A stretch of 64,000 bases of DNA from Plasmodium malariae (taxonomy: Eukaryota; Apicomplexa; Aconoidasida; Haemosporida; Plasmodiidae). The notes under the pieces were generated by a model. It searched no databases, was not told the origin of the DNA, and worked only from the letters and a program-made list of their open reading frames with translations. Shown here piece after piece: positions 34,319-59,484 of this stretch; within the stretch, counting starts at the first letter, position 1, and each line of letters begins with the position of its first letter. The position numbers and the translations under genes are program-made. The DNA is taken from the NCBI RefSeq assembly GCF_900090045.1, contig NC_041788.1, forward strand, positions 930,001 to 994,000, read 5' to 3'.

Positions 34319-36439
34319 ATGTATGTACATAATATGAATGTACGAAGATTATGTTTTGTGCATATATTGTTCATAATCCTTTTGAGAAGCCATTCTTGCA
34401 AATTATGTTATATACCTAATCCAGTTTTAAAAAAAAAAAAAATATCTTCCAAAATTCTGAATTACTTTATGGAATTAATTAGTACTAAAAATGTGAGAAC
34501 GTGTTCCCAAAAAAAAAAAAAAAAAAAATATTTTAATACATCAAATTTCAACAGGTTAATGTTAAATGATGATAAGACCTATACAAACTTTTTAAAAACT
34601 GAACGAGTTGTTATGAATGATAAGGATGATGCTGCTATCATTGGCATGTTCAATTACATATCTCAATGTATTGATAAAAGTGGGAGTAAAGATAATAATG
34701 GGGAGATAAAAAGCATGATAAAAAAAATTAATGATATCACAAATATAATATTTATTGAAGTAAAAGGTGTTGTTAAAAAATACCCATTCTTTAAGTATCA
34801 AATTGGTGTCAATAATATACCTAATAGACAAGTGGAAAATAGGGAATTGGGAATAACCAGATTATGCCATAATTTGTTATTCCCTAACACATGGAAATAC
34901 TATGCTGTAAGGTTGTATATGTATAATGTGTACTTAGCAATAATTCGTATAATTGAAAATACACTAGGTAACAAAATATTTTATGTAGATATGAAAGAAG
35001 AGCTGACAAAAAGAAAGGATATAATTATTAATATGCTGTATGATATTTACAGAGTTAAACATGTAGATAGTACGTATAAGGATAGTTACAATAACATGTG
35101 TAATGATAGACATAACAGTAATGCTCATTGCGATAGGAAGCCTATTCGCATCTTATACATTGGAAGTAACGAATTCAGCGCTATGTGCCTTAAAATAATT
35201 TTATTAATAATAAAGACAATTAGAAATGATATAAAAGTAGAGGATATTATTACGAAAAGCCCAAGAAGAAAGGGAAGAAATTTACATGTGAAAAAATCAA
35301 ATGTAGAAGAAGAAGCTAGGAAAAATAAAATAAATGTTTTTTATTATGACAAGTTCAAAAATACAATACATCAGTTAAAAAATAAATTATTTGATCTTTG
35401 TATTTCTATTTCTTTTGGAGAAATATTTAATAGCTCATTTTTTAAAACAGTCAATTCTAATATTTTTTCTTTACATCCGAGTTTGCTCCCATTATATAAA
35501 GGTGCTTCACCAATTCAAAGAAGTTTATTAAATAATGAATCAATATTTGGTTACACAGTTTTCTTAACTAATCTACGCATAGATGCAGGAACTACATTAA
35601 TAAAAAAATCTTTTCACTTTGATGAAACTTTTAATTTTAATGATATAATCACTATCCTCTTTACACTAGGTACTTTACATTTAATAAAAAATATTTTCTT
35701 TTTGGCAAATTATAATAATTTTATTCATAAGGAAAGACTAGTATATGATATATTTTGTAACTCCTTTTCTACTCGAGTAAATAATGAATATACAGAAAAT
35801 ATCAAATGTTCATATGCTAATAAAAAAGGGGTTTTCCCAATGTTATCCAGTGTAAATTCAGAACTGAGTGGCGTCAATTGCCCCCATCCTAGATGTTTCC
35901 CCACGAGCTCATATAACAATAGTGGTAGTGGTGATAGTAGTAGTAGCAGTAGCAGTAGAAGTAGAAGTGATGAACATACCAGCGGTAGTTGTAGCTGTAA
36001 CGGACAAAGTAAAGACAACAAGAATTACGCCCCTAAAATAAAAGCTGAAGAAAAGTACGTTTGCTTCTTTTGCTCCTCATCCATGTATATTCACAATAAA
36101 GTAAGGGGTTTTATAAACTGGCCCAAAGCAGAATGCTCTCTTTTTTTATATCAGAATAATGCAATTAAAAAAATTGAAGTCAAACTAATTAAAACATCCT
36201 ACGATTTATATGTTAATAATAATAATTATGCATTTCGGAAATTTCATAATTCGCTTGAAGGTCATAAATGTTTTGATAATGTTCCCAGAAAATTTGCAAT
36301 CCTCGATAAAAACTCCATAAACATTCAGTGCAAAGATAATACTTTGTTAAGAATTTATAAATTACAACGAAAAAATAAAAAAATTATGGATGCCATGTCC
36401 TTCTTTAATAGTATTAATAAAGTATATCTGCTGTACTAG
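34319..36439 (+). CDS. FMT: Methionyl-tRNA formyltransferase with organelle leader
   Basis: One open frame of 706 codons. It transfers a formyl group from 10-formyl-tetrahydrofolate to initiator Met-tRNA for bacterial-type translation. The fold starts near residue 275 with RILYIGSNEFSA. The signature loop is at about 386-407 (SLHPSLLPLYKGASPIQRSL), followed by IDAGT, and the C-terminal domain begins near 593 (VRGFINWPKAECSLFLYQ). The N terminus has a hydrophobic signal (LCFVHILFIILL) followed by a Lys/Asn-rich stretch, the usual bipartite apicoplast leader. The chain is over twice the bacterial length because of a long N-terminal region and Ser/Asn/His insertions near 35740-36040. The position that is normally Asn in NxHPSLLP appears to be Ser (FSLHPS). 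The start could also be the Met at residue 6. Confidence 0.9.
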   Translation: MYVHNMNVRRLCFVHILFIILLRSHSCKLCYIPNPVLKKKKISSKILNYFMELISTKNVRTCSQKKKKKKYFNTSNFNRLMLNDDKTYTNFLKTERVVMNDKDDAAIIGMFNYISQCIDKSGSKDNNGEIKSMIKKINDITNIIFIEVKGVVKKYPFFKYQIGVNNIPNRQVENRELGITRLCHNLLFPNTWKYYAVRLYMYNVYLAIIRIIENTLGNKIFYVDMKEELTKRKDIIINMLYDIYRVKHVDSTYKDSYNNMCNDRHNSNAHCDRKPIRILYIGSNEFSAMCLKIILLIIKTIRNDIKVEDIITKSPRRKGRNLHVKKSNVEEEARKNKINVFYYDKFKNTIHQLKNKLFDLCISISFGEIFNSSFFKTVNSNIFSLHPSLLPLYKGASPIQRSLLNNESIFGYTVFLTNLRIDAGTTLIKKSFHFDETFNFNDIITILFTLGTLHLIKNIFFLANYNNFIHKERLVYDIFCNSFSTRVNNEYTENIKCSYANKKGVFPMLSSVNSELSGVNCPHPRCFPTSSYNNSGSGDSSSSSSSRSRSDEHTSGSCSCNGQSKDNKNYAPKIKAEEKYVCFFCSSSMYIHNKVRGFINWPKAECSLFLYQNNAIKKIEVKLIKTSYDLYVNNNNYAFRKFHNSLEGHKCFDNVPRKFAILDKNSINIQCKDNTLLRIYKLQRKNKKIMDAMSFFNSINKVYLLY

Positions 36440-38967: not shown

Positions 38968-41900
38968 CTATATACACAATGTGTTATCGCCCAGTTCATT
39001 TAATATACACGATGAAATATAATTCAAGTCGTTTTTCTTCTGGGTTGTTTTCTCTTCACTCGAAGATTTTCCTAATTTTGATAAGTCTCTTTTCAAGCGC
39101 AATTTGTTAAAGTCCACTTTTATGTTATTTAACCAATTTCTGACCATGTTAATATTTTTTTCATCTTCCAATAGTATTGAATGTCCCATATTATCTCTTC
39201 TGCCAACTCTCCCACACAAATGAATATATTCATTTACATTTTTTGGCTTATTACATAGTATAACAATGTCTAGGTTATTTATATGAAAACCCCGAATACT
39301 GTCAAAGGAGCTAATAATAATGGGAAATTTATTTATATATTTTTGTTTTTGTTCTTTTTCCACCTTCACATCCACTTCTGCTTCTGTTGTTGCTTCTTTT
39401 GATTCTATTACTTTTTTTACCTCCTTTTCTACCTCTTCATCCCTAGAAGCGATTTCTCTTAAATTTTTTATGTCTTCGTAACTTCTACACATTTTACTTA
39501 AATTCTTGTTGTTGTGCCGTAGGGATATTTGTAACTTCTCATGGAGTAAAACTGAGAAAACTTTTTTTTCGTTTAGGTATTTTTTTAGATCCATTAATGA
39601 GTAACCATTTTTAACTAAAATTAGAATTTTTTTATTTTTAAAATCTTCTATTATTTCATAAGCTTCCTTTATTTTACTGCTATATAATTGATCACTTACT
39701 ACATGATAAAAATGATATATACTGTTCGGTATTCTAACTTTTATAACATATTTTTGCAATGTATCTTCACTATTTATGTAATTATCAAAGTTGAATAGAT
39801 TAGCATTTTCTTTATCCCATTCTTTACCCTCCTTTTTATTGAAGCTGTTTTGCTCATGAGAACACATAGTGGAACAACTTTTCTCATGTATACTGTCACA
39901 GTGTGAGCCTTTTCCCAATTTGTTTATTTGTGCCTCCTCCTTAGGCTTTCCACAATTTTTGATCACTCCGTTATTCATTCTGTTACTTGGAGTGTCGCTC
40001 AGATTGCTATTCAGACTGTTACTCATATCGTTACTCATATCGTTACTCATATCATTACTCATATCGTTACTCATATCATTACTCATATTGTTACTCAGAT
40101 TGCTACTCATATTGTTACTCATATTATTACTCAGACTGTTACTCATATTATTACTCAGACTGTTACTCATATTGTTACTCAGACTGTTACTCATATTGTT
40201 ACTCAGATTGCTACTCAGATTGTTACTCAGATCGACACTTGTCATGTGCCTTGTTATGTCACTTGGCGTCGCACTATCCGTGTCACCGAATGCACCCGAT
40301 GAATAGTTCTTCTCCCTCAACACGTAAATTTTCTTTTTTTCATTGCCTCTGTTCAAACACAGAAGCTTACATATTCGTCTGTGTGTTTCCCTATTTAGAG
40401 TACTTGAACATCCAACAAAAACTGTATCTTTTCTATTCATATACATTAACGTTTCCAATATTAAATGTGCGTTTTTTCTTTTAATATTATTTTTCGTTCT
40501 TAATGATCTGCATCTCTTAACTGACGGAAACAACCTATCAATTTCATCAAAAAAAATATATTTAATACTTTGTAAAAAAGATTTTAACATACCCTTTTCT
40601 AGCTTTAAGATGTAATTTTTAAAGCACATAGGGGTTCCTACAAGAAAAGTAGAGTCCCTTAAAGTTTTCATTTCATCGAATATAATCGCGTCGCTTAGGT
40701 TTTCAATATTTTGGAAAATATGGCCCCCATCGCTATTACGGCTATTAGCGTTATTATTGATATTATTATTAATGTCATTACTATCACTATTACTGCTGTT
40801 ATAATTGTTGTTACTTATGTTGCTTATCTTACTGTTATTGCTGTCTGAGCTAGCCAACTTCATGTTTATTCCCAACTTGTGTCTTTTTATTTGTCCCACC
40901 TTTTTTTCACCATTAACACTGTTTTTTATGTTCTTAAACAAATTGGGGTTTACATTATCACCAATATCTTTGGTTATTGAAGGATCTATGTCTAATTTCC
41001 CTTTTTGCTCTTCGTTTTTTTTGTTTTTTATTATATCCCTCGTACTCTGTTTTTGCTTTGCTATCACCTCATCTTGCTTATCAATAAACAACTTAACAAT
41101 TTGTGCCTTTTTATTATTTATAAAGGATAGTATATTCTGAGCAATCTGTACACATAATTCTTTAGATGGGCATAAAATAAGAATTTTTTCCCCCTTTTTT
41201 AATACACTTTTAAATCTTCCTTCTAGTAATAAATCTTTGTTTTCTTTAATATCATAAATTTCCTCATACTTTTCACTAAATGATGTGTACTTAAGCTTAT
41301 TTGCATGCCCTCCTTTTTTCGCCTGTTTATTTAAGCCATATATGGTACTGCAATTATTATAGTTGATGTAGTTATAATAATTGCTGTGGCTATTATAGTT
41401 ACTATGGTTATAGCTGCTGTAGTCATGCTGGTCATCTGAGTTATTATTATAAAAATTTTTGTAATATGCACTGTTATACAAATATCTGTCTCTGTTAATA
41501 TCTTCGTCAAAAACAAATTCACAATTGTAAAAAAATTTTAAAATAAAATAAAATAAACAAATAGTTGTTTTTCCACTAGATGTCTTTGCATGCATAAGAA
41601 CATTATTATTCCGTTCGAGGAGGTAGATAAAATTTTTTTGTAAATTACTCAAGGATTTGATTTCTTTTACACTACTATTATTTTTAAAATTGCCTTTTAT
41701 ATAACTTACTTTATTCTCATCGTTTGAAGTACCCTTTTCAATAAAAACAACAGTCTTCTTATTTTTATTTCCTTGTTGTTCATACTTTTTCTTTAAATAA
41801 TAAATGTTATGGATATTTTTATCATCACTGTTTCGTAAAAAATTCTGCGCTTTGACAGAAGGTACTACTTTTCTAATAAAAGAGAAATGTGTATTTTCCT

Positions 41901-42048
41901 TTGTCCTCATACATTTTTTCGCTAATAAAATATTTTTTAAATAAATGAAGAAAATTATATATCTGTAGAGGGAACACCTCTTACTGCTGTTCAAATTAAA
42001 TATAAAACATTTCAACAAAAAAATATATTCAATTACATAATTTTCCAT
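38968..42048 (-). CDS. DEAD-box RNA helicase, probably organelle-targeted
   Basis: About 1,026 residues from the preferred Met at 42048 (MENYVIEYIFLLKC); the frame is open for 38 more codons upstream, but these are a repetitive HIPVHI stretch. Helicase motifs in order: Q-like NLQKNFI, motif I AKTSSGKTT, Ia PSKELCVQIAQ, GTP, motif II DEID, motif III as SST, then IIISSFDSIRGFHI (V) and HLCGRVGR (VI). The enzyme would unwind or remodel RNA using ATP. The hydrophobic, basic N terminus suggests import into an organelle. Between the motifs are large Asn/Ser insertions, including a 12-bp repeat block (about 40010-40225) encoding SNNMSNSL-like units. Motif III differs from the usual SAT, and DEID replaces DEAD. 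The start is 195 bases from a divergent small gene. Confidence 0.88.
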   Translation of the reverse strand: MENYVIEYIFLLKCFIFNLNSSKRCSLYRYIIFFIYLKNILLAKKCMRTKENTHFSFIRKVVPSVKAQNFLRNSDDKNIHNIYYLKKKYEQQGNKNKKTVVFIEKGTSNDENKVSYIKGNFKNNSSVKEIKSLSNLQKNFIYLLERNNNVLMHAKTSSGKTTICLFYFILKFFYNCEFVFDEDINRDRYLYNSAYYKNFYNNNSDDQHDYSSYNHSNYNSHSNYYNYINYNNCSTIYGLNKQAKKGGHANKLKYTSFSEKYEEIYDIKENKDLLLEGRFKSVLKKGEKILILCPSKELCVQIAQNILSFINNKKAQIVKLFIDKQDEVIAKQKQSTRDIIKNKKNEEQKGKLDIDPSITKDIGDNVNPNLFKNIKNSVNGEKKVGQIKRHKLGINMKLASSDSNNSKISNISNNNYNSSNSDSNDINNNINNNANSRNSDGGHIFQNIENLSDAIIFDEMKTLRDSTFLVGTPMCFKNYILKLEKGMLKSFLQSIKYIFFDEIDRLFPSVKRCRSLRTKNNIKRKNAHLILETLMYMNRKDTVFVGCSSTLNRETHRRICKLLCLNRGNEKKKIYVLREKNYSSGAFGDTDSATPSDITRHMTSVDLSNNLSSNLSNNMSNSLSNNMSNSLSNNMSNSLSNNMSNNMSSNLSNNMSNDMSNDMSNDMSNDMSNDMSNSLNSNLSDTPSNRMNNGVIKNCGKPKEEAQINKLGKGSHCDSIHEKSCSTMCSHEQNSFNKKEGKEWDKENANLFNFDNYINSEDTLQKYVIKVRIPNSIYHFYHVVSDQLYSSKIKEAYEIIEDFKNKKILILVKNGYSLMDLKKYLNEKKVFSVLLHEKLQISLRHNNKNLSKMCRSYEDIKNLREIASRDEEVEKEVKKVIESKEATTEAEVDVKVEKEQKQKYINKFPIIISSFDSIRGFHINNLDIVILCNKPKNVNEYIHLCGRVGRRDNMGHSILLEDEKNINMVRNWLNNIKVDFNKLRLKRDLSKLGKSSSEEKTTQKKNDLNYISSCILNELGDNTLCI
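40010..40225 (-). repeat. 12-bp coding repeat inside the helicase
   Basis: Units of ACTCATATCGTT and variants (ACTCAGACTGTT, ACTCATATTGTT) repeated about eighteen times. On the coding strand it gives SNDM/SNNM/SNSL tetrapeptides between the two RecA-like domains. It is open in all plus-strand frames, producing spurious ORFs. Confidence 0.9.
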
Positions 42049-42242
42049 AAAACTGTATATAGTAATATATATGTAAGTATATATATATTCAGGTATATGT
42101 ACCGGTATGCGTGCAGTTATATGTACAGGTATATGTACACGTATATGCAATTGTATATGCATATGTTTACAATTAGCGCAACAAATGTTTTATTTAAGCT
42201 TTACTACAGCTTATCCATTTTTCGTTTAATATTGTAGTAATA

Positions 42243-43212: not shown

Positions 43213-43617
43213 TTAAAGGTCCGATTTAACCTGTTGTAGGTACTGCTTAAAAGATGAAATTCTGTTTTTATTTGCAGTAACTATTTCTTCGTTCATACAT
43301 ATTTGACTATTTATTTTTTGTATGTAAGCCTCTGATGAACTTAGCAACTTACTTCGAAATTTCCATTGTAACTGTATTTTCCTTAAATCCGTCCGTAAAA
43401 GGTGCACATTCTCTTTTAAATTATCACTTTCCTTTTTCAATATTTGCGTTATATCTTCCTTATTTCTTAGCTGATCTCTAAATATTTCAAAATACTGCAA
43501 TATATTATGAGTTTCCTTATGAGCAAACTGTTTTATTTCTTCATTTAAGTACTTCCACTGCTCATTGCTTAAATGCGTTAATGTAAAAGAGGAAAAATCC
43601 TCTTTTTTTTTACTAGC

Positions 43618-43659
<42 letters not shown>

Positions 43660-46600
43660 TAAAATTAGGTAGCTAGCTAAAATGGGGGCGAAAAAAGAAT
43701 ATATAAAAAGAAAACGTATTAAAACTAATTGAGGTAATACAAGAAATAAAAAATAAAATGTATTGCATTTTAGATATATTTCCATATTAACTAAACCTAA
43801 TAAAAGTACAACAGAATACATAAGCTGTTGACATATGGTCAAATCGTTAAAGCCATCAATACCATAAAAAAAATAATGAAACATAAAAAAATTAAGGTAA
43901 ATAAATAATAACATGAAGAAGCATTTCCTTATTTGCTTTTTATTAAAACACAATGCTTCATATAGCTTCTCCCTTTTAATGTATTTAGACAAAAAAATAA
44001 ACATGTTGATTGTGATTAAAAAGGTGAACAAATAAAAAATATTTGTAAAATGTGAAAAAAGGTAAAATAAATTTATGTATACATTAAAATAGCTGCCAAA
44101 ATCATTTGAATAAAATTCAATCATGTTGATATATATAGAAACAACAAACCACAACACAACAATAATAAAATGTGCAGCAAAAATGAGTAAGTTTAAAATG
44201 TCGTATTCGCAAATATACGTCAGATAAATTTTCATTTTAAACAATAAGCTAATACGAGAAGACTTTTCCGTTTTGTTGTTCATATGAATATTACCATAAT
44301 TTCCGTAAAAACCGTAATTTGTGCTATCGAAGTTATTTGCAGCTAAGTAGTTACTTGTAGACACGTAGTTATTAACATAATTGTGAGAGTTAATATTATT
44401 TACGTTCTCCAAATTTTGCAGTTCACCCATGTTACTGTTTAACTTGTTACTTTGCCATTTGTTCATTGGTAAATGGACAAAATTCTTACTTAAAACTGAA
44501 AGAAATATATTATAAAAATCCCTAAAATTTGTAATAAGATATATATATATGACTATAAATAAAGAGAACAGTATGGTGATAAATAGTAGATTAATTACTA
44601 CACCTTTAAAATAAGAAATATTAAAAGACTTAAAAAATAAATGACCAAAATATATATTTTTCGATATATATCCACTTGACGTAAAAACAAAATGTATGGT
44701 AACTAAGACACTATGAAGATCATTCTTATCGAATAAAATAAAAGAAATTTCAATTCTTTCAACTGAATTATTAATTAGTAACGCTATATCGTCTAATTTG
44801 CTTTGTAATATTAATCTTTCGTTCTTTATATTTATATAACAATTTTTCCTCGCTCTATCACATATAAGAGCATTATTTGAAGAATTGATTTTCTCTCTAA
44901 ATGTAATATTAACTTTTATTTCTTCACCCCGAATACTAAATATGTCCATCCACTTAAACGTTTCATAATTATGAACGTCATTTCCAACAGCAGTTGGACT
45001 ATTTTGCAAAAACGAAATAAAAGAATTATTTAACCATTTAATAACATCACTTTTATTCTTTATTTCATTAAAATTAAAATTTCCTTTTTTAATATTAACA
45101 TTTATATTTTTTCTTAAATGATGAAATATCATTTTCGTATATATACTACTTCTAGGTGAGGAATCTATATTTTCCAATTGATATTTCAATAAATTATCGC
45201 TTTCTCTTATTTTTTTATAATCATTAATAAGGAATAACATAATAAAGATCAATAAAGTTGTGTATACAAATATAGAAAATATTATTCCCACACTTTTTTT
45301 TTTATGGTTATTATATATTCTTAAAATAAGTTTTTTTTTTTTAAAGGAAAGAGGTAAAAAGTCATTCAAGTTTAAAAATTTATTGAAAATTTTTTCTATG
45401 CGAAATAAGGCCTTTTTTTTTTCTTTTTTTTCATTATTATTTTTTTCCTTTTCCACATTCCTTATATCTTCATTTCCATTTGACTTTTCACATATATCTA
45501 AAATATCATTGTAACATAAATCCTTGTTGTCTAACTCGTCCGGATCTACTTCATAAACATTTGACTCGTTCGAAATGTTCAAATCATCTGAGTTATATAA
45601 CGAGTGCACACCACCACTTATACTGCTGTTACTGCCGCTACTTCTGCTACTTCTGCTACCACTACCATTGCTTACCATTTCTCCAGTGTATTTTTGCGTA
45701 TTATCACTTCTGTCTTTTTCATATTGTTCGTCTATCTGTTCATGCGAATGTACAATTAATTCCGTTGAATTGAGTCTACTTGTTTTTTTTTTTTTTTCTT
45801 CTGTGGAACATTCTCTTACGAATGATTTTCCTTTCCGAACTTTACCTTCGTCATATATGGTATCATCATCCTGTCCGCTTTCAATTTTATTTCCTTTATT
45901 TTTTTTGTATTTATTATTATGTCTTAATAATTTAGTGCCGTATTGATATATAAATGCATCATAAATTTTTTGATTTCTTTTAATGAACGATTTAATAGCC
46001 AGAAAAAATATAAAAGAAAAGCTTACAGTGACAATAAAAAAAAGAGCAGGAATCGAATAAAAATAGGATAATGTTGTTTCTTCACTAACAATGGACGAAA
46101 TATTAAATCCTTGGAAATTTGCAAATATAATACATACATTAAAAATAAAAACATAAAGCATACTAGAGTTCACATTTTCTGAAATATGAAAAAGTTTATA
46201 GCTAAAAAGAGAAAATATAGCTAAGCATCCTAATATTATAGCTATAATGATGAAAAAAGGATATAAAAAATCTTTTTTGATATTTTTCTCAACGTTGCTA
46301 TATTTTTTTATTAACAGTCCAAAACGCTTTAAGAAGACGAAACACGACAATGTAAACGTTACTATTGTTATACTAATCAAAATATTTTTTATTAATTCGA
46401 TAATGGAAATAGTAAAATTCACTTCTTGTAATAAATCTGCAACTGCTTTTACGTCCCCTAGAGAATGTAATGCATGCATTTTGTGTTTTCCCTCTTCGTA
46501 ACTGGCCAGCTTAGGAAGCATTGAATGGCACAAACAATAAATGAGTAAGAATGTCAAATTTGAAAGGAAACAAACTGAAAAAAACAGGTGTATGAAAAAA

Positions 46601-46783
46601 TAAAAAAAAGTTATTAAGCAGATAAGGATGTAACTTCCTATGCAGTTATGTAGATATGCCATTATGTAGATACACGACTAAGGTGATCGGTTTGACAACT
46701 AAATCCCACGGTCCCATTATCACAAAATGAACGATTTAAGTGCAAGCATGTGTATATGCCCACATGTACGAATATACATACCC

Positions 46784-46816
<33 letters not shown>

Positions 46817-47998
46817 TGTATGTATGTATGTATGTATGTATGCATATACATTGCTCAAATCCCCTGCGCGAAGATGGAGGAAGCGCAGTCAGTATATTGC
46901 CGAATTACCGATGAGGAAAAACTGGATATAGTAAGATTTCACGTACAGCTTAAAACCCACCATTGCAAGTTTTCGGATATTTGTTAAAACATATATAAAA
47001 AAAATAAGAAGAAATATAGCTAAGGAAAGGATAAAATAAATACTGAACTGATTATATGATGCAGCCATTGTTACTATTTCCTTATACGTTTTCGCATTAG
47101 GCAAAAAGGCAAATTTTAAAACATTATATGAGATCATATTTAATACAGGATTAAATAATAAAAAGTCTAATGCCACAGAAGATACATTATAATTTGTTAA
47201 TATAATAGCTGGTATAAAGTAAGGAAAATCAGCTGAGTATATATTAGTACCTTGAGAAAGTTGTTCTTGAATTTTATCATAATCCTTTTCACATATTATT
47301 TGATATAATCCTCCTATTTTTTTATATGATTTCTCATATGAAAATAAATAATTCCATTTTTTATCAAAATAAAGAGAATTAACATTTCTTGCGTCTTCTA
47401 TATCATTTGAAAATATACTGTCTGGATATATTTCATATATTTTTTTATATTTATATATATTCCTTAATATATCCTCCCCATTTTTTTTATATAATCTCAT
47501 AGTTATTCTCCAGCAATTTCCAAATAAAATATTGCTGTTCAGAAAATTTGGATAAGACACTTTTTCAGTGAATGTATTTTTTACCCATGAGGACAGTTCA
47601 AATTTACTGTGTATATTTTTGAACAGTGTATAATCCTTCTCTCTCGTTGCATAAGAAAAATCATTATTTATTTTTTTTATCTCATCACTTAAAGATTTAT
47701 AAAATGATTCAGAATATGTCTTCGATTCGTTTATGTTGTTATATATATAGTTTTGAAAATTTTTTGTATTTACTATACTATTTGAGGTATAAAGAACAAT
47801 AAAAAAAAAAATTATTACAATTAAATCAATATTTATTTTAATTAATCTTTTTCCATTTTTTATTTTTTCTGACAATAAAGCTAGCTCCACAGACACTTTT
47901 TCCTTTTCTTCCACTGTATATTTAAACAAAATATTTGCATATACCTTTAAATATCTTAAACCGTCTTCATTGTATATCTTTTTTTTATCACTTATCAT
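43213..47998 (-). CDS. Two-repeat polycystin/TRPP-like cation channel, two exons
   Basis: Exons 47998-46909 and 46574-43213 join in phase 1 (ATCG|GTAATT ... TTTTTTTCAG|TTTGTT) to give 1,483 residues. Unit one: S1 about 57-72, a luminal polycystin domain about 80-305 with LSSWVKNTF and ALDFLLFNPVLNMISYNVLK, S2 about 315-340, and S3 spanning the exon joint. It continues to S6 at about 562, with pore loop ANFQGFNISS near 515-525. After an acidic, Ser/Asn-rich linker, unit two repeats the plan: S1 about 791-813, a second polycystin-like domain with SVERIEISFILFDKND, S2 about 1022-1045, S3-S5, pore loop LGLVNMEI near 1289-1296 and S6 to about 1336. A 37-base A run encodes poly-Lys just after it. 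The tail (about 1355-1483) is a coiled coil. Family assignment rests on the domain order and on motifs shared with PKD2; both filters lack the usual acidic residue. Calcium-permeable function is inferred only. Confidence 0.78.
46786..46842. repeat. (TATG)n microsatellite in the polycystin-like gene intron
   Basis: About fourteen perfect TATG units inside the 334-base intron 46575-46908. Confidence 0.95.
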
Positions 47999-48527
47999 TT
48001 TTGAGCTTCTTGATCGTGTGAACTATTTCTCTCATTTTACCTGCACGCGTGCATACTTAATCTGTACAAGCGTTTGCCTATTTATTTGTATGAAAACATA
48101 AACGTGCATATGCATAAGCATATGCGCACGTACATATATACACATCCACACATATACGCACATATGCACACACTAGTTGATCAATTAATATTCTCTGTTA
48201 ACCCTCATGCAAATAACACTATTAATTCTTTCTTACCACAGAAAATTTTTTAGCATTTCGGCACGGTTCGTCCGTGTCTAGTACATTGGCATTTTGCCTT
48301 TCCCCTCAAATTGCGCATTACTGCTGTGCTACACATACGTAGATAGCCTGCGCAAATACATATACATATATAAGAAACACTTGTGTATTTTATTTTTTTT
48401 TTTTATTATAACTTGGTCATAATGATCAGAGGTGGCAATTAACACTCCTGCTTACCTGTGTTAACATGTTCTATTTTGAATACGCGTTTTACTTTACTCT
48501 TTTTAACTATTTTTAAAATAGTCCAAT

Positions 48528-49521: not shown

Positions 49522-52500
49522 TGGGGAAAGACAAAATCGTAGGGTTATTCACAGCTATGTTTGACAAGAAGTCAATATTTTTTATTATATCCTTTCCATT
49601 GAATGTTGAAATTTCTGGGGGTAAATTATTACGCGCATATCCTGAATTCTTCTCTCTATTTACATTATTTACTAGATCAGTTATGTTCTTTTCCTCCTTA
49701 TTTAGTAAATGTTGTACGTATTCTGAGTACTTCTCATAATCTCTAATATTGTTCAATGATTTTACACGAAACAAAACTAGCTGTTTTTGTAAAGGTGTCA
49801 AAAATAATTTAACCAAGTCGATTAATATAAGTAATTCCATGTGATTACAAGTACCTTTCATTACACTAAAAAAAAGTACATCAAACCATACAGTTGGATT
49901 TAATAAATAACTAGGCTTATTTTTCTTAATTTGCATATTTTGCTTATTTTGCTTATTTTGCTTATTTTGCATATTTTGCATATTTTGCATATTTTGCATA
50001 TTTTGCATATTTTGCATATTTTGCATATTTTGCATATTTTGCTTTTTTTTTTTTTTTCCTCTTTATTATTATAGCTTTCACACTTCAAATAGCAATATTT
50101 ACATATATCTTCTATACTAAAATACGTATCATCAAATAATATTTTTTCTATGGATATATAATCGTACTCCTTTGTATAGCAGCTCCTATGAAAGAAATTC
50201 TTATGTTTGTTTAAATGAAAATCACTAATTTGAAAATTCAGTATCCCTCCTATATTCTTTTTATGATCATTCATGTAATTATCGTCAATTAATTCGTCTA
50301 TATGCACACCATCGTTGTAGTAGTAGTTGTTGCTGTTGCTGTTGCTGTTGCTGCTACTACTGCTACTGTTGTAATTGGTTTTATTATTAGGTCCACATAC
50401 CACTGCTTCTACACCTTTCCCTGTTCCCCCTCGACCCCCTTCTAACCGCGCACTTAACTGATCATCCATACGATACTGCATAGAGTTAAATAAAGAATTA
50501 GAATATTCCCCTCTTCCATTCCTCCTAAAAGTCAGTTGCTTAACAAAGGATGACGAGTTTTTTGACAAAACTACTGCAAGCAATTTTGAAGCTAACATAA
50601 ACTGTTTGTTCATATTTAATGAAATAACTTTAATTTTCAGGATTTGTTGTATTACTGCAAAAATTCTTTCCGTATAATCCTGTATTGCATTCTTGCTACT
50701 GTCTTGTATATCGGACAAATCTTCTTTGCTATATAACTTCCCAAATATATCCTTTGCAAATACTACACTACAGTTCTTTTGTCCTTTTAATTTATAATAT
50801 AATTTAATATATAAATCTATAGCTTCTTTTCTATATTTTTCGTTTTTTTCATTTAAATAGTACTGTTCAAATGTTACAAAATCAGGTAAAGAAATTTTCT
50901 TTTTTAAATGAACATTCGAAATATTGTCTAGCAGTATATTTGGACATATCAAATCTTTGCAACCAATATATTGTTTCATTTGAGCTAAACGATAAATTGT
51001 ATATAATGTCAAATTATGTGATGACCAAGATGAACTACTTAACGTATTTAAACAATCCTCAGCTATTTCTATTGCCTTATCAAAATTTCCATTATTTTTC
51101 AAAGAATCAGCTAATAAACATTTATTTTGTAAAATAATAAATTCTGATATTTTACTTCTTTTACAATATTGTAAAGATAGAGTGTAATATTTTATTGCTC
51201 TATGATATTTATTTAAAGACATTAAAATATTACCAAGTAACAGTAAGGAAAAGATACATATATAATGAAAACACATATCATTTAAACCAGTATACAGCAT
51301 GTGGTAACATTGTTCAGAATAATATTCTCCCTTTAGTAAATTTTTTTTTTTTTTCTCAAAAAAATAAACCGCATCTAACATTTCACCCCCTACTTTTCCT
51401 GTTCCCTTTCGCTCTTTATTAAAATCTTCATCATTCGATTCGTCACTCGATTTGGCATAAGTTTTCCTCTTAAGCTGCTGAGTCTTTTTATGAATCTGCA
51501 ACTTCCCCCCATTCTTCTGTTTCGTAGACCCTTCTCTTGCTCCATCAGTCTCATACCATTTGGAAGCACTGCACGCTTTATCATAATAATAGTTAGCCAA
51601 CAAAATATTGGACAACAAAGTGCTCAAGTTACATTCTCCATCGTAATATTTACTAAATATTAAGATCAATTTATAAATTATCAATGCGTCATCTATATTT
51701 TCTTCCTTAACCTTACACTGTAATATTAAAATCAATATATCCCTTGTAATAGTACCTATATGAGGAATGGCATTATAAATATAATAACATATTTTCAGGC
51801 ATTTGTGCACATAACCATGTTCAAAATGTAAATATGCCAGATACAAAAATTTTTTAGCTATATCAAATATATTTTTATTAATACTCACATTTAATAATAA
51901 ATAGATACTCTTCTTAGCTCTAATATAATTTATACATTTCATTTTTTCATTCAAAATACAATAAGGATGACAAGGAATATTATATTCATAAATAAAACTT
52001 TTTATTTGACTACAAGATCCAACATTACATATGTTATTTACATGTAAATAATCGCTCTGTTTTATACGAATTATTTCTATAATATTTTCTTTCAAAATAT
52101 TCCTTATCTTAAACTTCTCTTGTATTATAATATTAGAAGATAACATCTCAATAATTTTATGATACCATGTTGTATATTTTGGATAGCATATTTTACTCTT
52201 AGGATAAAAAAAAACAAAATTTATTTTTTCGCAATGATAATAATTATACCTTGGCGTTTTTTTCTTTCTAATTTTATTATCATATACATTTTTATCCCAA
52301 TTGTTCATATTAAAATTATTTATAGTCGGATCCTTTCCCCTAGTTCTACTACCATCTCTTGATTGAGAAGATAAATAGTTCTCTTCACCCATTCTTTTAA
52401 ATATGGAATAAATGTTTTTAATGCCTCCCCTTTTCCTTTCGTAACTTGAGGAATCATGAGTTTTACCTAAACTGTTCAGGCTTTTCTCCGTCTTTTTTAA

Positions 52501-55500
52501 ATCTCCATTTAGCCTATTATTATGCTTTTTTAATTCACTTAAAGTTTTGTACTTTTTCTTTGACTTATATTCCCTACTTAAACAATCACTATTCAGGGAG
52601 TATTTTTCTTTATTCTTACTTTTGATTGGTCTTTTTTTTAAATACCTTTTTCTGTTAGGAGCATCATGGTCATAATCTTCATCGCTGTTATCGTCATCGC
52701 TGTTATCGTCATCATTGTTATCATTATGGCCATCATCACAATCATCTTTTATTTTGCTCCTTTCATAAGCCCGTCCTTCCCGTATGCATAGATCCCCCCT
52801 TTTTCTAATACCCGCTTTAAAAATATTTTTCAAATGAGATACATTAGGAAATAGGACTTGCTCCTTTTTAGAATCAAAAATGGACATATCCTCCAAAGTT
52901 AGAGGCAGTTTAACACAGTAGTTCTGTTTACATTCCTCTTTAAAATAAACTCCAAAATGAAATTCTATACATAGAAGTAATCCATATATTTCCATATCTT
53001 TTATTTTTATATGATCATTTAAATTAACTTGAAATTTTTCCATGCACTGAGGTATTAGTATGTTATGCCAAAATTTTACTGAATCTACTGTATTAAAATT
53101 TAAGGTTAGATTTATCAGTCTAATTAGGATTTTATGTGGAGCTAATTCTGGAAAATAATTCCAACATGTATAACACTTGTTACATAAGCAAATAAAATTT
53201 TGACACTTATTTGTGTGATATTCGAGATGGTTATTCTTCCTGCAACTATCTGCAGTCGTGCTACACGCGCTGCACATGCTGCTACTGTCCCTACCATGAT
53301 CATTGCTGTGATTACTGCTCAGAACATTTCCGCTAATATTGCCACTAACATTGCAGTGAGCTCTACCCCCGCGATAACTACCTCCAACTCTGTGCGGTTC
53401 CTTCTCTAAAATTTGTGTTATGAAAGCATGTACGTGTTCATAATATATACATTTTAACGTGCGGCAAATAATTTCCCTGCATAACACTTGTGTAAGGAAT
53501 TCAGGTTTTTTATCACTATCTAAGAGATAGCCTAAGTTTCGCATATTTACCCCATGTGCGTGGTAAGACTCAGTTATATCATGACTATCACTAAAATTAG
53601 TTAAAATTTTTATAATTTTAGGAAGAAGGTAATTTTCAATATTATTAAGATTCTCTTTACTAGCATCCTTTAAAATATCTATATTGTTTTCGTGATTCTT
53701 CGTTTTATCATATCTTATATTAATAGCTGAAGTAGTATTATATAATGGACGATCCGAATAATAGTATTTTATAAACTCATATCTTATTCGGGTGATATAG
53801 TTTTCTTTACTAGAACTGAAAAGAAATGGAGGCAGTATTTCTTCTGTTCCTCTTATGATAAATAAATTGTCTATAACTGATCTATACATCTTAACATTAT
53901 TTCTTTTTTTAAATATTCTACTCTCAAAATAATTAGATAACCCAAAAGGAAAAATGCAACAATTGTAATTTAAGTAATCACTCATTTGTTTTATCTGATC
54001 ATAGATTATATGATCATAATTTTCTATTTCTAGCATTAGTCTTTCATAAAATAGCTTTTCCTTTCTTCTTTTAAAATATTCCTCTTTTTTTAAGCTTCTT
54101 ATCTTTCTCCTCAAGAACTTCATTCTCCTTCCTTTTCTTCTACCATTTGATATGCCTTTTTTCTGGATGATATACTCACCCGTGGGTACGTTCTTTTCTG
54201 GGTAGTTATTACTACACTTCATATCGTTCATAGGGTGATAAAAATTCGCCCCCTTAGCAGATTTAGAAATAGATTTCCTATCTACCTCTGCTATATATTT
54301 CTGAGCTTCACCCGATTCATCCGATTCATTCGATTCATTCGATTCCTCTTCACCCTGCATTTCATTCCTTTCCTTCTCTTCCACCGCTTCCCTCACACAG
54401 TAATCACTAATTTCCACTTTGCTCAATAACTCCTTAACCACATCAACCGGAAGGTGCGCTTCATTTAGTGGCATGAGTGGCTCCGAAATTACCCGCATGC
54501 CCATAAAATCAATTTGGCTAGCTATAGGCAAGGAAAATTTGGAATCCCTTTTTAAATTAAATATACAATCACATAGAACTTTTTTCCCCTTAAGATCATT
54601 GCTATATATTTTTCTTGCTGTGTTAACATTAATATTTCTTTTTTTGCTTCCTAATATTACCGTAAATACAAGACTATCAAATAGAAAAACTAAATCATCT
54701 TCAAATTTTGGTTTATATATTTTATAAATGTGCGCATAATTTTCTTTAGATATATTAACAAAGCATTTTTTGAAATAGTTATAAGTATCATTATTTTCAT
54801 TATTACTTAAAAATAAACAATATATTAATCCACATGCACCGATTTTACTAGACATGTGATATAATTCTAGTTCATTAAATAATTCCTTCTCGCGTTCCCC
54901 TTCCTTTTTTTCATCATAAATATAATCCTTTAATGCCCATATATTTCGAAAGGCATAATTTATTCTATCATGCCAATTAGAACTCAAATACGAACTTTCA
55001 TCTTTGCACAGAAAGTTATATAAAGGGTGGATAGCATCGATGTTATGGCTTCTCGAAGGCTTAACATTATTCATAAAATGGTTAAAGATGTTAGTTTTAC
55101 AGCTCAAGAAATTCGACGATATTGCGTCTTTAACTAACGGAGTACCACTTCTTCCGCTGCTTTTGTTACTATGCTGGCCACTACTGATATCTCTACTACT
55201 GTTAATACTACAACGCACAGAATCATCTTCAGACGAGTTGCTACTACCCCATTGTTTGAATTGCTTGCACTTGGTAGTACTCTGCTCCTTTTCGCTGATA
55301 TCTCTTTTGTTGTATATTTTTCCAAACAATTCTTGCAAATAAGGAGCATTTATTTTATTTATTTTGACTTGGTATTCTTCTTCTGATGTATTTCTATCAC
55401 TTAAAACATGTTTATCCTTTCCTACGTTATTAAGCAGCTCTACCTTTTCCGATACATGTTCTTCAATAGGAGGGGTATTATTATTTTTTAAAGTTTTATT

Positions 55501-56010
55501 AAAATCATTTATTTGTTTATCAATTTTAGGTTCCTTCTCTTTTACCTCTTCTATTGTATTTTCTTTTTCATCAGATTTTTTATTTATTACTTTAATAGGT
55601 ATTTCCTTTTTATTGTCATTTTTATTTTCATTATTATTTCCTTTACTATTTTCTTTTTTATTTACGAATTTAACTTTAAATAATTCATTTTTATGTACTA
55701 CTTTTTTTTTTTTTTTTTTAAATATTAACCCCCTTAACTTCTTAAGTTTGAATAAATATATTGTGTTATTTATTATCCTTTTTATATGTCCTTTCACATT
55801 TTGCACTTTTATACCCCCCTTCCTATTTTTCGAGCTTATTATTCCACTACTATTTTTATTTCCATTTCTTGGCTCCCCTTTTATATCACTTATTAAATAA
55901 TTGTCTAAAGCAAGTATGTCACTATTATATGTAGAACCCTTCCCTTTGTTTCCTTTTAGACGTTTCTTTTTCTTTTTTAATGAGGTAAATGTGCTTTTCA
56001 GAATACTCAT
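49499..56010 (-). CDS. CLU: Clustered-mitochondria (CLU) family protein, frameshifted in a poly(A)/9-bp repeat
   Basis: The main frame runs 56010-49900 (about 2,036 codons). The rest continues in another frame from the 9-bp repeat to 49499, because a 15-base A run (50043-50057) is one base short or two long. CLU hallmarks: SLPIASQIDFMGMRVISEPL (about residue 490), YHAHGVNMRNLGYLL and LCREIICRTLKCIYYEH (about 815-850), a p135-like segment VKFWHNILIPQC (about 975), then TPR-like helices (KYHRAIKYYTLSLQYCKRSK, NFDKAIEIAEDCLNTL; about 1570-1680). CLU proteins bind mRNAs for mitochondrial proteins and govern mitochondrial distribution in the cytosol. Long Lys/Asn/Ser insertions and a Cys cluster near 940 are Plasmodium additions. 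The first 310 residues are disordered. Below 49521 another coding-like frame (49249-49521) may be an alternative C terminus. Confidence 0.8.
49931..50042 (-). repeat. 9-bp coding repeat open in every frame
   Basis: About twelve copies of CAAAATATG (coding strand), with CAAAATAAG variants. Translates as QNM, KIC or YAK depending on frame, with no stops in any. It sits immediately after the A run where the CLU frame changes. Confidence 0.95.
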
Positions 56011-56860
56011 TGTTCTTTTTTACTTTTATTTTTACCTTGCATGTACATAATTTTTTATTTTGATTTTCTCCGCATATTTATTGTTCCTCAAATAATATAT
56101 TTTTTTTTTTTTTTTTTTTTTTTACCAATATAGGATTATATCTATTTGTTCATTATTTTTCATTCCCCCGTTCCTTCAATTATTGAAACAAATTATTTGT
56201 GCTCCGTAATGTAGCAAGACGCTTCTTATTAAAAAAAAATATATTATTAATAATAATATTAATAATATTAATAATAGTAATGATAAAGGCGAAATTTTGA
56301 TGTATCTACAGAATGTTTAAATATAAAGGAAGAAGTGAAAAAAAAAAAAATTAAACAAAATATATGACTAATAAATGATGGCTTACAACCAACAGCTGGT
56401 GCTACGTTTATCCGTTTTTTCTTTTATGTTTATTTTAATGTGGCTAACTTTTCTTCATTTTATTATTCTTTTTTATTTTGTTATATTTTTTATTCCATTA
56501 TTCTTTTTTATTTTATTAAATTTTATATTTTATTAAATTTTATATTTTATTAAATTTTTTATTTTATCATATTTTTTATTCTATTATATATTTTATCAAA
56601 TTTTATATTTTATTATTTTTTTATATTTTATTAATTTTTTATATTTTATTATTTTTTTATATTTTATTATTTTTTTATATTTTATTATTTTTTTTATTTT
56701 CTTATTTTTCTTATTTCCTTATTCTTTTTATTTTATTTTATTTTATTTTTTTTTTTTGATGTGTAAAATTAGACGAAAGTTACAAGCGTGATACAAGCCG
56801 ATTTTATAAAATAAAAGAATAAAAGACAGAATTACACATAAATATATGCACATAACATGT
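56011..56860. other. Divergent intergenic region upstream of CLU with TTTTATTAAA satellite
   Basis: Presumed CLU promoter and 5' UTR. From about 56440 to 56755 it is a degenerate array of TTTTATATTTTATTAAA units. No gene seen. Confidence 0.6.
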
Positions 56861-57934: not shown

Positions 57935-58837
57935 TCAAAATGAAAATTTCTTTTCCATGTATAACTTAGTCAATATTTTGGAGAGCTTATTTATGGGCAG
58001 CCCCATAACATTGTAATAGCATCCATCTATTTTTTTTATAAATTGACAGCCTACTCCTTGAATGGAATAAGCACCAGCTTTATCATATGGTTCCTTCAAA
58101 TTTAAATATTCTTCAATATCTTGTTCCTTTAGATTATCAAAATGTACTATAGTTCTTTCAACAAATGTAACAGGGATTTTTGTTCTATATAAAAATATAC
58201 ATACAGCAGTATAAACACTATGGGTATTTGAGGATAATTTTTTCAATATTTCCTTCGCATGATTTTTATTTGAAGGTTTTTCTATTATTTCTTCATTCAG
58301 TGTAACAATAGTATCACAAGAGATTATTATATTTGGTATAGGGTCGTAAGTACTTTGCAATGTTTTCATTTGACTTATATTCGTTACACGTTCACCCAAA
58401 TCATTCATCTGATTTGACCCACTTGGCCCATTTGGCTCATTCGGCTTATTCGTCTCATTTATTTCACTTCCTTCATTTCTGTCCGTATGAATGTTTCTAC
58501 CCTTTTCCATTTCTACCACCTTTGACTTATTATTATCATTCATATTACTACTGCAATGATTGTTACTGATCTTATCGTTCGCTTTGCTAAACCATACGTG
58601 CTCCGCTACGTTTAATCCTTTATTTAAAGCATTTTCTTTAACATAATCTTCAGCACATGCAAATTTCTTTTTATCTAAATTCTCTTCAAATCCGGACTCA
58701 CAAATGTATAAATTTTTTATACCCATTAACTTCATTAGTTCTATTCTTCTTGGGGATTTACTTGCCAACAAAATCCAACATTTCCTTTTATCTTCAAATA
58801 TATTACCTAAACCGATCACATGAGAACATTCTTTCAT
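57935..58837 (-). CDS. Maf/ASMTL-type nucleoside triphosphate pyrophosphatase
   Basis: The frame is open from 58963, but Met at 58837 (MKECSHVIGLGNIF) is preferred because a separate small gene ends at 58953. The product is 300 residues. Maf proteins cleave modified or canonical nucleoside triphosphates to monophosphates, a house-cleaning role. Signatures: ILLASKSPRRIELMKLMGI (phosphate-binding SxRR), SCDTIVTLNEEIIEKP with the catalytic-type Asp, YDKAGAYSIQG and CYYNVMGLP. An Asn/Lys/Gly-rich insertion of about 70 residues (about 58370-58580) separates the first helix pair from the core; otherwise the length matches the family. No leader peptide is obvious with this start. Confidence 0.88.
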   Translation of the reverse strand: MKECSHVIGLGNIFEDKRKCWILLASKSPRRIELMKLMGIKNLYICESGFEENLDKKKFACAEDYVKENALNKGLNVAEHVWFSKANDKISNNHCSSNMNDNNKSKVVEMEKGRNIHTDRNEGSEINETNKPNEPNGPSGSNQMNDLGERVTNISQMKTLQSTYDPIPNIIISCDTIVTLNEEIIEKPSNKNHAKEILKKLSSNTHSVYTAVCIFLYRTKIPVTFVERTIVHFDNLKEQDIEEYLNLKEPYDKAGAYSIQGVGCQFIKKIDGCYYNVMGLPINKLSKILTKLYMEKKFSF

Positions 58838-58952
58838 TTCTACTTTAGGTATAGAGGTAAATAAGGATATGAAAAAATAGCCGTGGAAACACTTCCAATT
58901 TGTAAAAAAGTGTATGATATGAGAATACGTTGACCCGTTTTTTTTTTTTTTT

Positions 58953-59484
58953 TTATTCTTCAAAATAATCCAAAAATGAAATCAATTTTTTACATGTATA
59001 GGCTTTAAAAAAAGGGGGGGAAAAAATAATAATATTAACAAATTAGTGAGCAGCTAAGTGCGCCTTTATATTTATAGTAGTAATGCTCCTTTATTTGGCA
59101 AGTATTTAGAGTTCACGCGAATGTATACCTATCTGTTATGTATATACGTATGTATTTAGTATATATGCACACCTTACAATTCAAAGTTGCAACAAATGTT
59201 ATTCTTGTGTTCATTTGCTTATCGAATGGACCATTAAAAGTTACGTAAATATTTGAAAATTTTGATTTCGATAGTTCATCAAATGAAAAAACTGCTTAAA
59301 CCAAATGACAAAAACGTTTTTACACACAACTGATGAAGTGGTTTGGAATATGTATACACATATTCTTATATGCATATGATATGTATGTATATGTATATGG
59401 GCATTTGCCTCTGCCCCTTCACATGTATTACAAACGCATATAGCTAAAAATATGAAGCAACTTTTAACTATTTACTAACTCCAT
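58953..59484 (-). CDS. Small three-exon gene, 60 residues, unknown function
   Basis: Exons 59484-59469, 59294-59178 and 59002-58953 join in phase (1, 1) to 183 bases. The product starts MELVNT, continues VFSFDELSKSKFSNIYVTF and NGPFDKQMNTRITFVATLN, and ends SYTCKKLISFLDYFEE then TAA. The middle exon is strongly coding, its donor is GTAAGG, and the last exon follows poly(T)AAAG. The first exon has only 16 coding bases, so its donor (GTTAAA) is the weakest point. No family recognised. It is in tandem with the Maf gene and its end defines the likely Maf start. Confidence 0.55.

Follow-up and report, generated by a model that had tools for sequence, protein, structure and literature searches.

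Two tandem polycystin-like units predicted in a single membrane protein of Plasmodium malariae

We analyzed a 64,000-nucleotide stretch of the Plasmodium malariae genome (NCBI RefSeq assembly GCF_900090045.1, contig NC_041788.1, positions 930,001 to 994,000 of the forward strand; hereafter the window, numbered from its first letter) and studied a gene at 43213-47998 that is predicted to encode a large membrane protein with two polycystin-like halves. All features of the gene given below are on the minus strand. Two open frames at 46889-48022 and 43213-46677 are bridged by a 334-bp GT-AG intron, and translation from an ATG at 47998 joined the two exons in phase to give a protein of 1,483 residues, as an initial annotation of the window had claimed; the translation and a scan of GT-AG pairs bear out that claim. 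Exon 1 (46909-47998) encodes residues 1-363 and the first base of codon 364, and it lies inside a 377-codon open frame of 24% GC, whose stop at 46889 falls about 20 bases past the donor. Exon 2 (43213-46574) is an open frame for residues 364-1483 and the stop. The predicted intron (46575-46908) has the donor TCG/GTAATT and the acceptor CCTGTTTTTTTCAG. In the scan, 43 pairs including the proposed one kept at least 1,400 residues (25 of these 43 were listed); three of them use the acceptor whose pyrimidine tract is best, and, judged visually, the 5' site of the proposed pair comes closest of these three to a donor consensus. We favor this splice because the join gives the first half of the protein the same segment order as the second half, the unjoined pieces both being incomplete. 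The intron also carries a (TATG)14 microsatellite of 56 bp at 46787-46842.

Hydropathy analysis of the whole chain with a single threshold (17-residue mean Kyte-Doolittle value of at least 1.6) detected exactly 14 hydrophobic peaks: seven in the first half, at residues 60, 330, 370, 436, 478, 509, and 549, and seven in the second, at residues 802, 1031, 1167, 1217, 1257, 1284, and 1313. The order of the peaks is the same in both halves, namely, S1, a long loop, S2 to S5, a pore-helix-like peak, and S6, with the S1 and S2 peaks separated by 270 residues in unit 1 and 229 residues in unit 2. By hydropathy spacing, both units therefore show the polycystin layout of six transmembrane helices, a pore helix between S5 and S6, and an S1-S2 loop of about 200 residues. 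The fragment of human polycystin-2 (PKD2) used for comparison starts after S1, and the computed spacings cover the last luminal strand to S6. The distances in unit 1, unit 2, and PKD2 were 49, 38, and 37 residues from the last hydrophobic strand of the luminal loop to S2; 40, 136, and 37 from S2 to S3; 66, 50, and 51 from S3 to S4; 42, 40, and 41 from S4 to S5; and 71, 56, and 62 from S5 to S6. The S2-S6 spacings thus track those of PKD2 save for one insertion, an Asn-rich stretch between S2 and S3 of unit 2 (44254-44487, residues 1060-1137). At the same threshold, the PKD2 profile showed no pore-helix peak, whereas both units have one.

When the spacings were used as a fingerprint, the full version was found in unit 1 and its S3-S6 part in both units. 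The comparison set consisted of 60 stop-to-stop frames of at least 200 residues from 264 kb of the same genome, eight of them with at least four peaks; it includes both frames of the studied gene, in which unit 1 becomes complete only after joining. None of the 60 frames contained the full fingerprint, and the S3-S6 part matched only in the frame of the studied gene. Among 200,000 random series assembled from the 46 spacings observed, 17 had the full fingerprint and 518 had its S3-S6 part, frequencies that serve only as a guide because the tolerances were set after the gene had been seen. Two tandem six-helix units in one chain are the best reading of this layout.

Unit 2 (residues ~790-1338) comprises S1 (45214-45297, residues 790-817) and S2 (44515-44625, residues 1014-1050), both placed by hydropathy, an intervening luminal domain (44626-45213, residues 818-1013, with cysteines 935 and 942), and S3-S6 with the pore helix (43651-44214, residues 1151-1338), placed by alignment and hydropathy. 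We modeled unit 2 without an alignment or templates and compared the low-confidence model with known structures. Ranks 1-44 among the 50 entries listed were polycystins or mucolipins, and 12 of these entries superposed over 112-125 residues at 2.7-3.2 Å, so that the fold of the polycystin (TOP/PMD) luminal domain can be recognized in the model. Alignment scores of the S3-S6 part against PKD2 exceeded those of shuffled sequences, and the presumed filter LLGLVN aligned with ILGDIN of PKD2; an Arg residue (Arg1317) lies inside S6. The modeled fold and the S3-S6 sequence support the assignment of unit 2 as polycystin/mucolipin-like.

In unit 1 (residues 1 to ~563), hydropathy placed S1 at 47762-47854 (residues 49-79) and S2 at 46952-47059 (residues 314-349), while topology and weak similarity to unit 2 placed a loop at the position of the polycystin/TOP domain (47060-47761, residues 80-313). 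Exon 1 ends within S3; the rest of S3, S4, S5, the pore-helix-like peak, and S6 follow in exon 2 (45976-46574, to residue 563) by hydropathy and spacing. The presumed filter region, FANFQGFN, is placed by position only and contains no acidic residue. Of six anchored block comparisons, one stood out, that of the first block in the unit 1 loop with unit 2; just 2 real segments out of 1,454 and 23 shuffles out of 2,000 scored as well. The same test of unit 1 against PKD2 gave no signal, and a by-eye alignment of the unit 1 loop to PKD2 motifs was dropped for want of support from it. From its layout and the weak, scheme-dependent similarity to unit 2, we infer that unit 1 may be homologous to polycystins. 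Of the annotated double occurrence of S1, a luminal polycystin domain, S2-S6, and a pore loop, the two matching hydropathy series and, in the low-confidence model, the luminal domain of unit 2 were recovered, and the polycystin domain of unit 1 was not.

The units are separated by a charged, low-complexity linker assigned by composition (45310-45897, residues 590-785). It had been annotated as acidic, but residues 586-785 contain 37 Asp and Glu and 37 Lys and Arg residues in 200, giving a net charge of about zero. Directly after S6 of unit 2, a repeat scan found a homopolymer of 38 A bases on the coding strand (43620-43657), which encodes a Lys run and poses a risk to the frame. The tail that follows (43216-43617, residues 1350-1483) resembles a coiled coil by heptad count: within the C-terminal 138 residues, seven of the eight a/d positions are hydrophobic in the best 28-residue windows. 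The heptad pattern agrees with the C-terminal coiled coil of the initial annotation, although the frame of the tail requires a correct reading of the A run because the tail sits behind it.

We compared the predicted protein with known channels. It resembles human polycystin-2 (PKD2/TRPP2) and PKD2L1 in the spacing from the last loop strand through S2-S6, in the modeled luminal fold of unit 2, and in the S3-S6 sequence of unit 2. In contrast, those proteins have one unit per chain and an LGD filter, whereas the studied protein has by its layout two units, carries no LGD (LGL in unit 2 by alignment, FANFQGFN in unit 1 by position only), and has no polycystin Pfam match. The mucolipins (TRPML1-3), which also have one unit per chain rather than two, scored slightly below the polycystins (Z 6.5-8.3) in the comparison of the unit 2 model. 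Two-pore channels act as a dimer forming a pseudo-tetramer; their units are of the voltage-sensor type, with short S1-S2 loops and a charged S4, and a large luminal domain between S1 and S2 is not known to be part of them. The studied protein differs in its large S1-S2 loops, given above as distances of 270 and 229 residues, and in its 17-residue S4 peaks, which contain no charged residue. It shares with two-pore channels the arrangement of two six-helix units in one chain, as described for that family (PMC7312350).

Closer counterparts may exist among apicomplexans. Prole and Taylor reported in 2011 one homologue of TrpML/TrpP (transient receptor potential, TRP, channels) each in P. falciparum (XP_001349872, 14 transmembrane domains, TMDs), P. 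knowlesi (XP_002262030, 14), and P. vivax (XP_001617062, 12), all found solely via homology with a Toxoplasma gondii Trp homologue; for T. gondii, they gave two TrpP homologues with 14 and 19 TMDs (PMC3194816). In the main text of that paper, neither "two repeats" nor any word starting with tandem or duplicat appears. The studied gene is probably the orthologue of these Plasmodium homologues because the TMD count of 14 matches; they number one per species with 12-14 TMDs, against 14 peaks here, and a search of the P. malariae genome with exon 2 as the sole query found no second copy. A match to exon 2 on contig C3, with five stops and extending to the Lys run, was taken as chance, and scans of viral contigs with exon 2 and with the PKD2 fragment found no relatives. 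TgTRPPL-2 of T. gondii (TGGT1_310560), likewise with 14 TMDs, is described as a protein of 2,191 residues, against 1,483 here, whose HHpred matches are polycystin-2 homologues; the paper depicts one large loop, between TMDs 1 and 2, and reports a tested non-selective cation channel that conducts Ca2+ and is likely cut, with an endogenous band of ~115 kDa, about half of the predicted 237 kDa (PMC8216714). Neither "two PKD" nor any word that starts with tandem, dimer, or tetramer appears in its main text. In our reading, the 14 TMDs of TgTRPPL-2 might represent two six-helix units, each with a hydrophobic pore helix, and the ~115 kDa band would be as expected if a linker joining the two halves were cut.

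As the best explanation of the whole, to which we give a probability of about 0.55, we propose that the gene encodes a single protein with two tandem group-II TRP-like units and that this protein forms a dimeric, pseudo-tetrameric cation channel. One intron-containing gene would yield a membrane protein with two polycystin/mucolipin-like units, each made of S1, a luminal domain, S2-S5, a pore helix, and S6, together with a flexible charged linker and a coiled coil. A dimer is proposed because each chain has two units; four units would surround one pore as in the pseudo-tetramer of two-pore channels, the luminal domains would be arranged as a ring facing away from the cytosol, and the coiled coil would tie the chains to each other. 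Cations including Ca2+ would pass across an internal membrane or the plasma membrane of the parasite, a function proposed solely by analogy with TgTRPPL-2 (PMC8216714). The channel is expected to be poorly selective because neither filter region has the acidic residue of PKD2. The units would differ in role, with unit 2 being more canonical and unit 1 more diverged, and one of them may be the poorer conductor and act in gating, the part proposed for polycystin-1 alongside polycystin-2. The linker may be cut, by analogy with the Toxoplasma protein. More tentatively, and with rather less confidence, we suggest for apicomplexans at large that they fused two polycystin units into a protein that is a TRP equivalent of the two-pore channels and forms a dimeric pore without an acidic filter, with one unit conducting, the other gating or regulatory, and the linker cut during maturation. 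If so, a two-unit TRP protein, overlooked in sequence searches, would be the sought-after channel for Ca2+ release or entry in malaria parasites.

Several results speak against two polycystin-like units. Pfam scans to an E value of 10 with the two exons and eight pieces returned no polycystin family and only unrelated families below the cut-offs, with neither PKD_channel (PF08016) nor Polycystin_dom (PF20519) matching either half. Over the whole genome (33.6 Mb, 62 contigs, the window being on contig C14), PF20519 found no match, a profile also silent in 14 of 14 control genomes, and PF08016 found none at the studied gene. The single PF08016 match elsewhere (L001, C8:2539340-2539447, E 0.0127) was taken as chance, its frame having only 88 residues; we take this frame to resemble the membrane end of a multigene-family protein. 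Searches of PDB sequences with the exons and S3-S6 pieces found no related sequence. Unit 1 gave no signal against PKD2 under any scoring scheme; against unit 2, its loop gave z 0.8-2.7 depending on the scheme, and whole unit 1 gave z 1.8-2.5 with PAM250 and at most 0.75 with BLOSUM62 or 45. With composition correction off, BLAST aligned the two units at E 1e-4, a figure set aside as undependable because an out-of-register alignment reached 4e-4. The model of exon 1 had a predicted local distance difference test (pLDDT) score of 39.9, that is, low confidence, and three Foldseek matches with E values of 2.2 or worse, none credible, although this says little because S3-S6 and any alignment were left out of the modeling. 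For unit 2, the pLDDT was also low (43.9), the three structure-comparison (VIA) rows of highest Z had root mean square deviations of 8 to 21 Å, the best Foldseek E value was 0.019 with none below 0.001, and the query TM-scores were at most 0.19 in the polycystin rows shown, with beta-lactamases interspersed. The unit 2 loop alone showed no steady signal against PKD2 (z -0.5 to 2.2), and whole unit 2 against whole PKD2 gave z 0.8-2.9. In hhalign comparisons with a PKD2 plus PKD2L1 profile (five of eight segments completed), unit 1 and whole unit 2 scored at shuffle level, and the unit 2 loop reached z 2.65, yet its own reversed sequence scored higher; single-sequence hhalign of unit 2 with PKD2 gave P 0.12. 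As the curated profiles match neither unit, they fall on neither side of the view in the initial annotation that a match confined to one unit would tell against it. Because the protein lacks the Pfam match, the acidic filter, and the single unit per chain of the family, we call it polycystin-like and not a TRPP member.

Alternatively, the protein could be polycystin-like in its second half only, joined to a first half that is an unrelated membrane domain of seven segments, and would then assemble as a tetramer of fusions. The uniformly negative sequence tests of unit 1 against PKD2, the exon 1 model without a credible match, and the unremarkable score of one unit's S3-S6 part against the other's (z -0.7 to 1.6) would fit such a fusion; against it, the spacing of unit 1 tracks PKD2, including 42 versus 41 residues from S4 to S5, the first loop blocks of the two units are similar, and the PAM250 scores of the whole units point the same way, though not the BLOSUM ones. 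We consider this alternative rather unlikely. Even with two polycystin folds, conduction is not assured because neither unit has the LGD filter and S6 of unit 2 contains an Arg, and the protein might instead be a polycystin-1-like regulator or receptor that passes no ions alone and gates or scaffolds another channel. The filter regions without acidic residues and Arg1317 agree with this, as does a report on the PC1/PC2 complex, in which PC1 residues R4100, R4107, and H4111 are said to act with PC2 residues to block the permeation path (PMC12183636). On the other hand, weak searches of the genome found no other polycystin-like gene that could serve as the conducting partner, and we consider a non-conducting role unlikely, slightly more so than the fusion. 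A sequencing artefact at the homopolymer, which would put the coiled coil in another frame or outside the protein, is conceivable at a perfect A38, where read lengths are uncertain; however, a 138-codon open frame with a heptad pattern continues in phase to the stop, so that we think it improbable, and it would touch the tail and leave both units unaffected. Least of all do we expect exons 1 and 2 to be separate genes that are not spliced together. Exon 2 does have its own ATG upstream of the acceptor, but two separate genes would break unit 1 apart between S2 and S3, with an incomplete unit on either side of the break; the join restores in unit 1 the segment order of unit 2 through a good in-phase donor and acceptor, exon 1 lying in its long open frame.

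Two tandem polycystin-like units in a dimeric channel would matter for the Ca2+ biology of malaria parasites. Apicomplexan genomes appear to lack homologues of inositol 1,4,5-trisphosphate (IP3) and ryanodine receptors, and Ca2+ signals are important for egress and invasion, according to Prole and Taylor (PMC3194816); a 2022 review describes possible Plasmodium TRP homologues as uncharacterized in expression and function (PMC9799330). A two-unit polycystin-like channel would be a concrete Ca2+ channel candidate, and its architecture would account for its escape from profile searches. Such a channel would be expected to assemble as a dimer, to select poorly, and perhaps to be cut between its halves, and it would be a TRP-family case of the route by which two-pore channels arose through duplication. 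The unusual channel architecture of the initial annotation stands as the best reading of the layout and is less new than it seemed: the protein has probably already been listed as a Trp homologue in 2011 (PMC3194816), and TgTRPPL-2 is a tested channel (PMC8216714). The two-unit reading looks to be the new part. Among the open-licence literature matches listed, nothing relevant was found on a two-unit layout, on tandem or two-domain polycystin or TRP proteins, or on P. malariae TRP channels; the accession numbers of the homologues were found in a literature search only in the 2011 paper, and neighboring numbers not at all.

The window contains several other frames with recognizable domains. A frame of 1,443 residues at 23334-27665 matches MgtE_N (MgtE intracellular N domain) with an E value of 9e-11, and a 706-residue frame at 34319-36439, which we take to be methionyl-tRNA formyltransferase-like, has formyltransferase N and C domains after a long N-terminal extension. 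Within a DEAD-box helicase frame at 38968-42189, a 24-bp tandem repeat of 11 copies (39970-40232) encodes an Asn/Ser/Met-rich stretch between the two helicase domains. The 2,039-residue frame at 49900-56019 has eIF3_p135 and TPR matches, is presumably CLU-like, and carries at its end a 9-bp repeat of about 14 copies (49918-50042). A frame for a Maf-like protein (E 2e-52) lies at 57935-58981.

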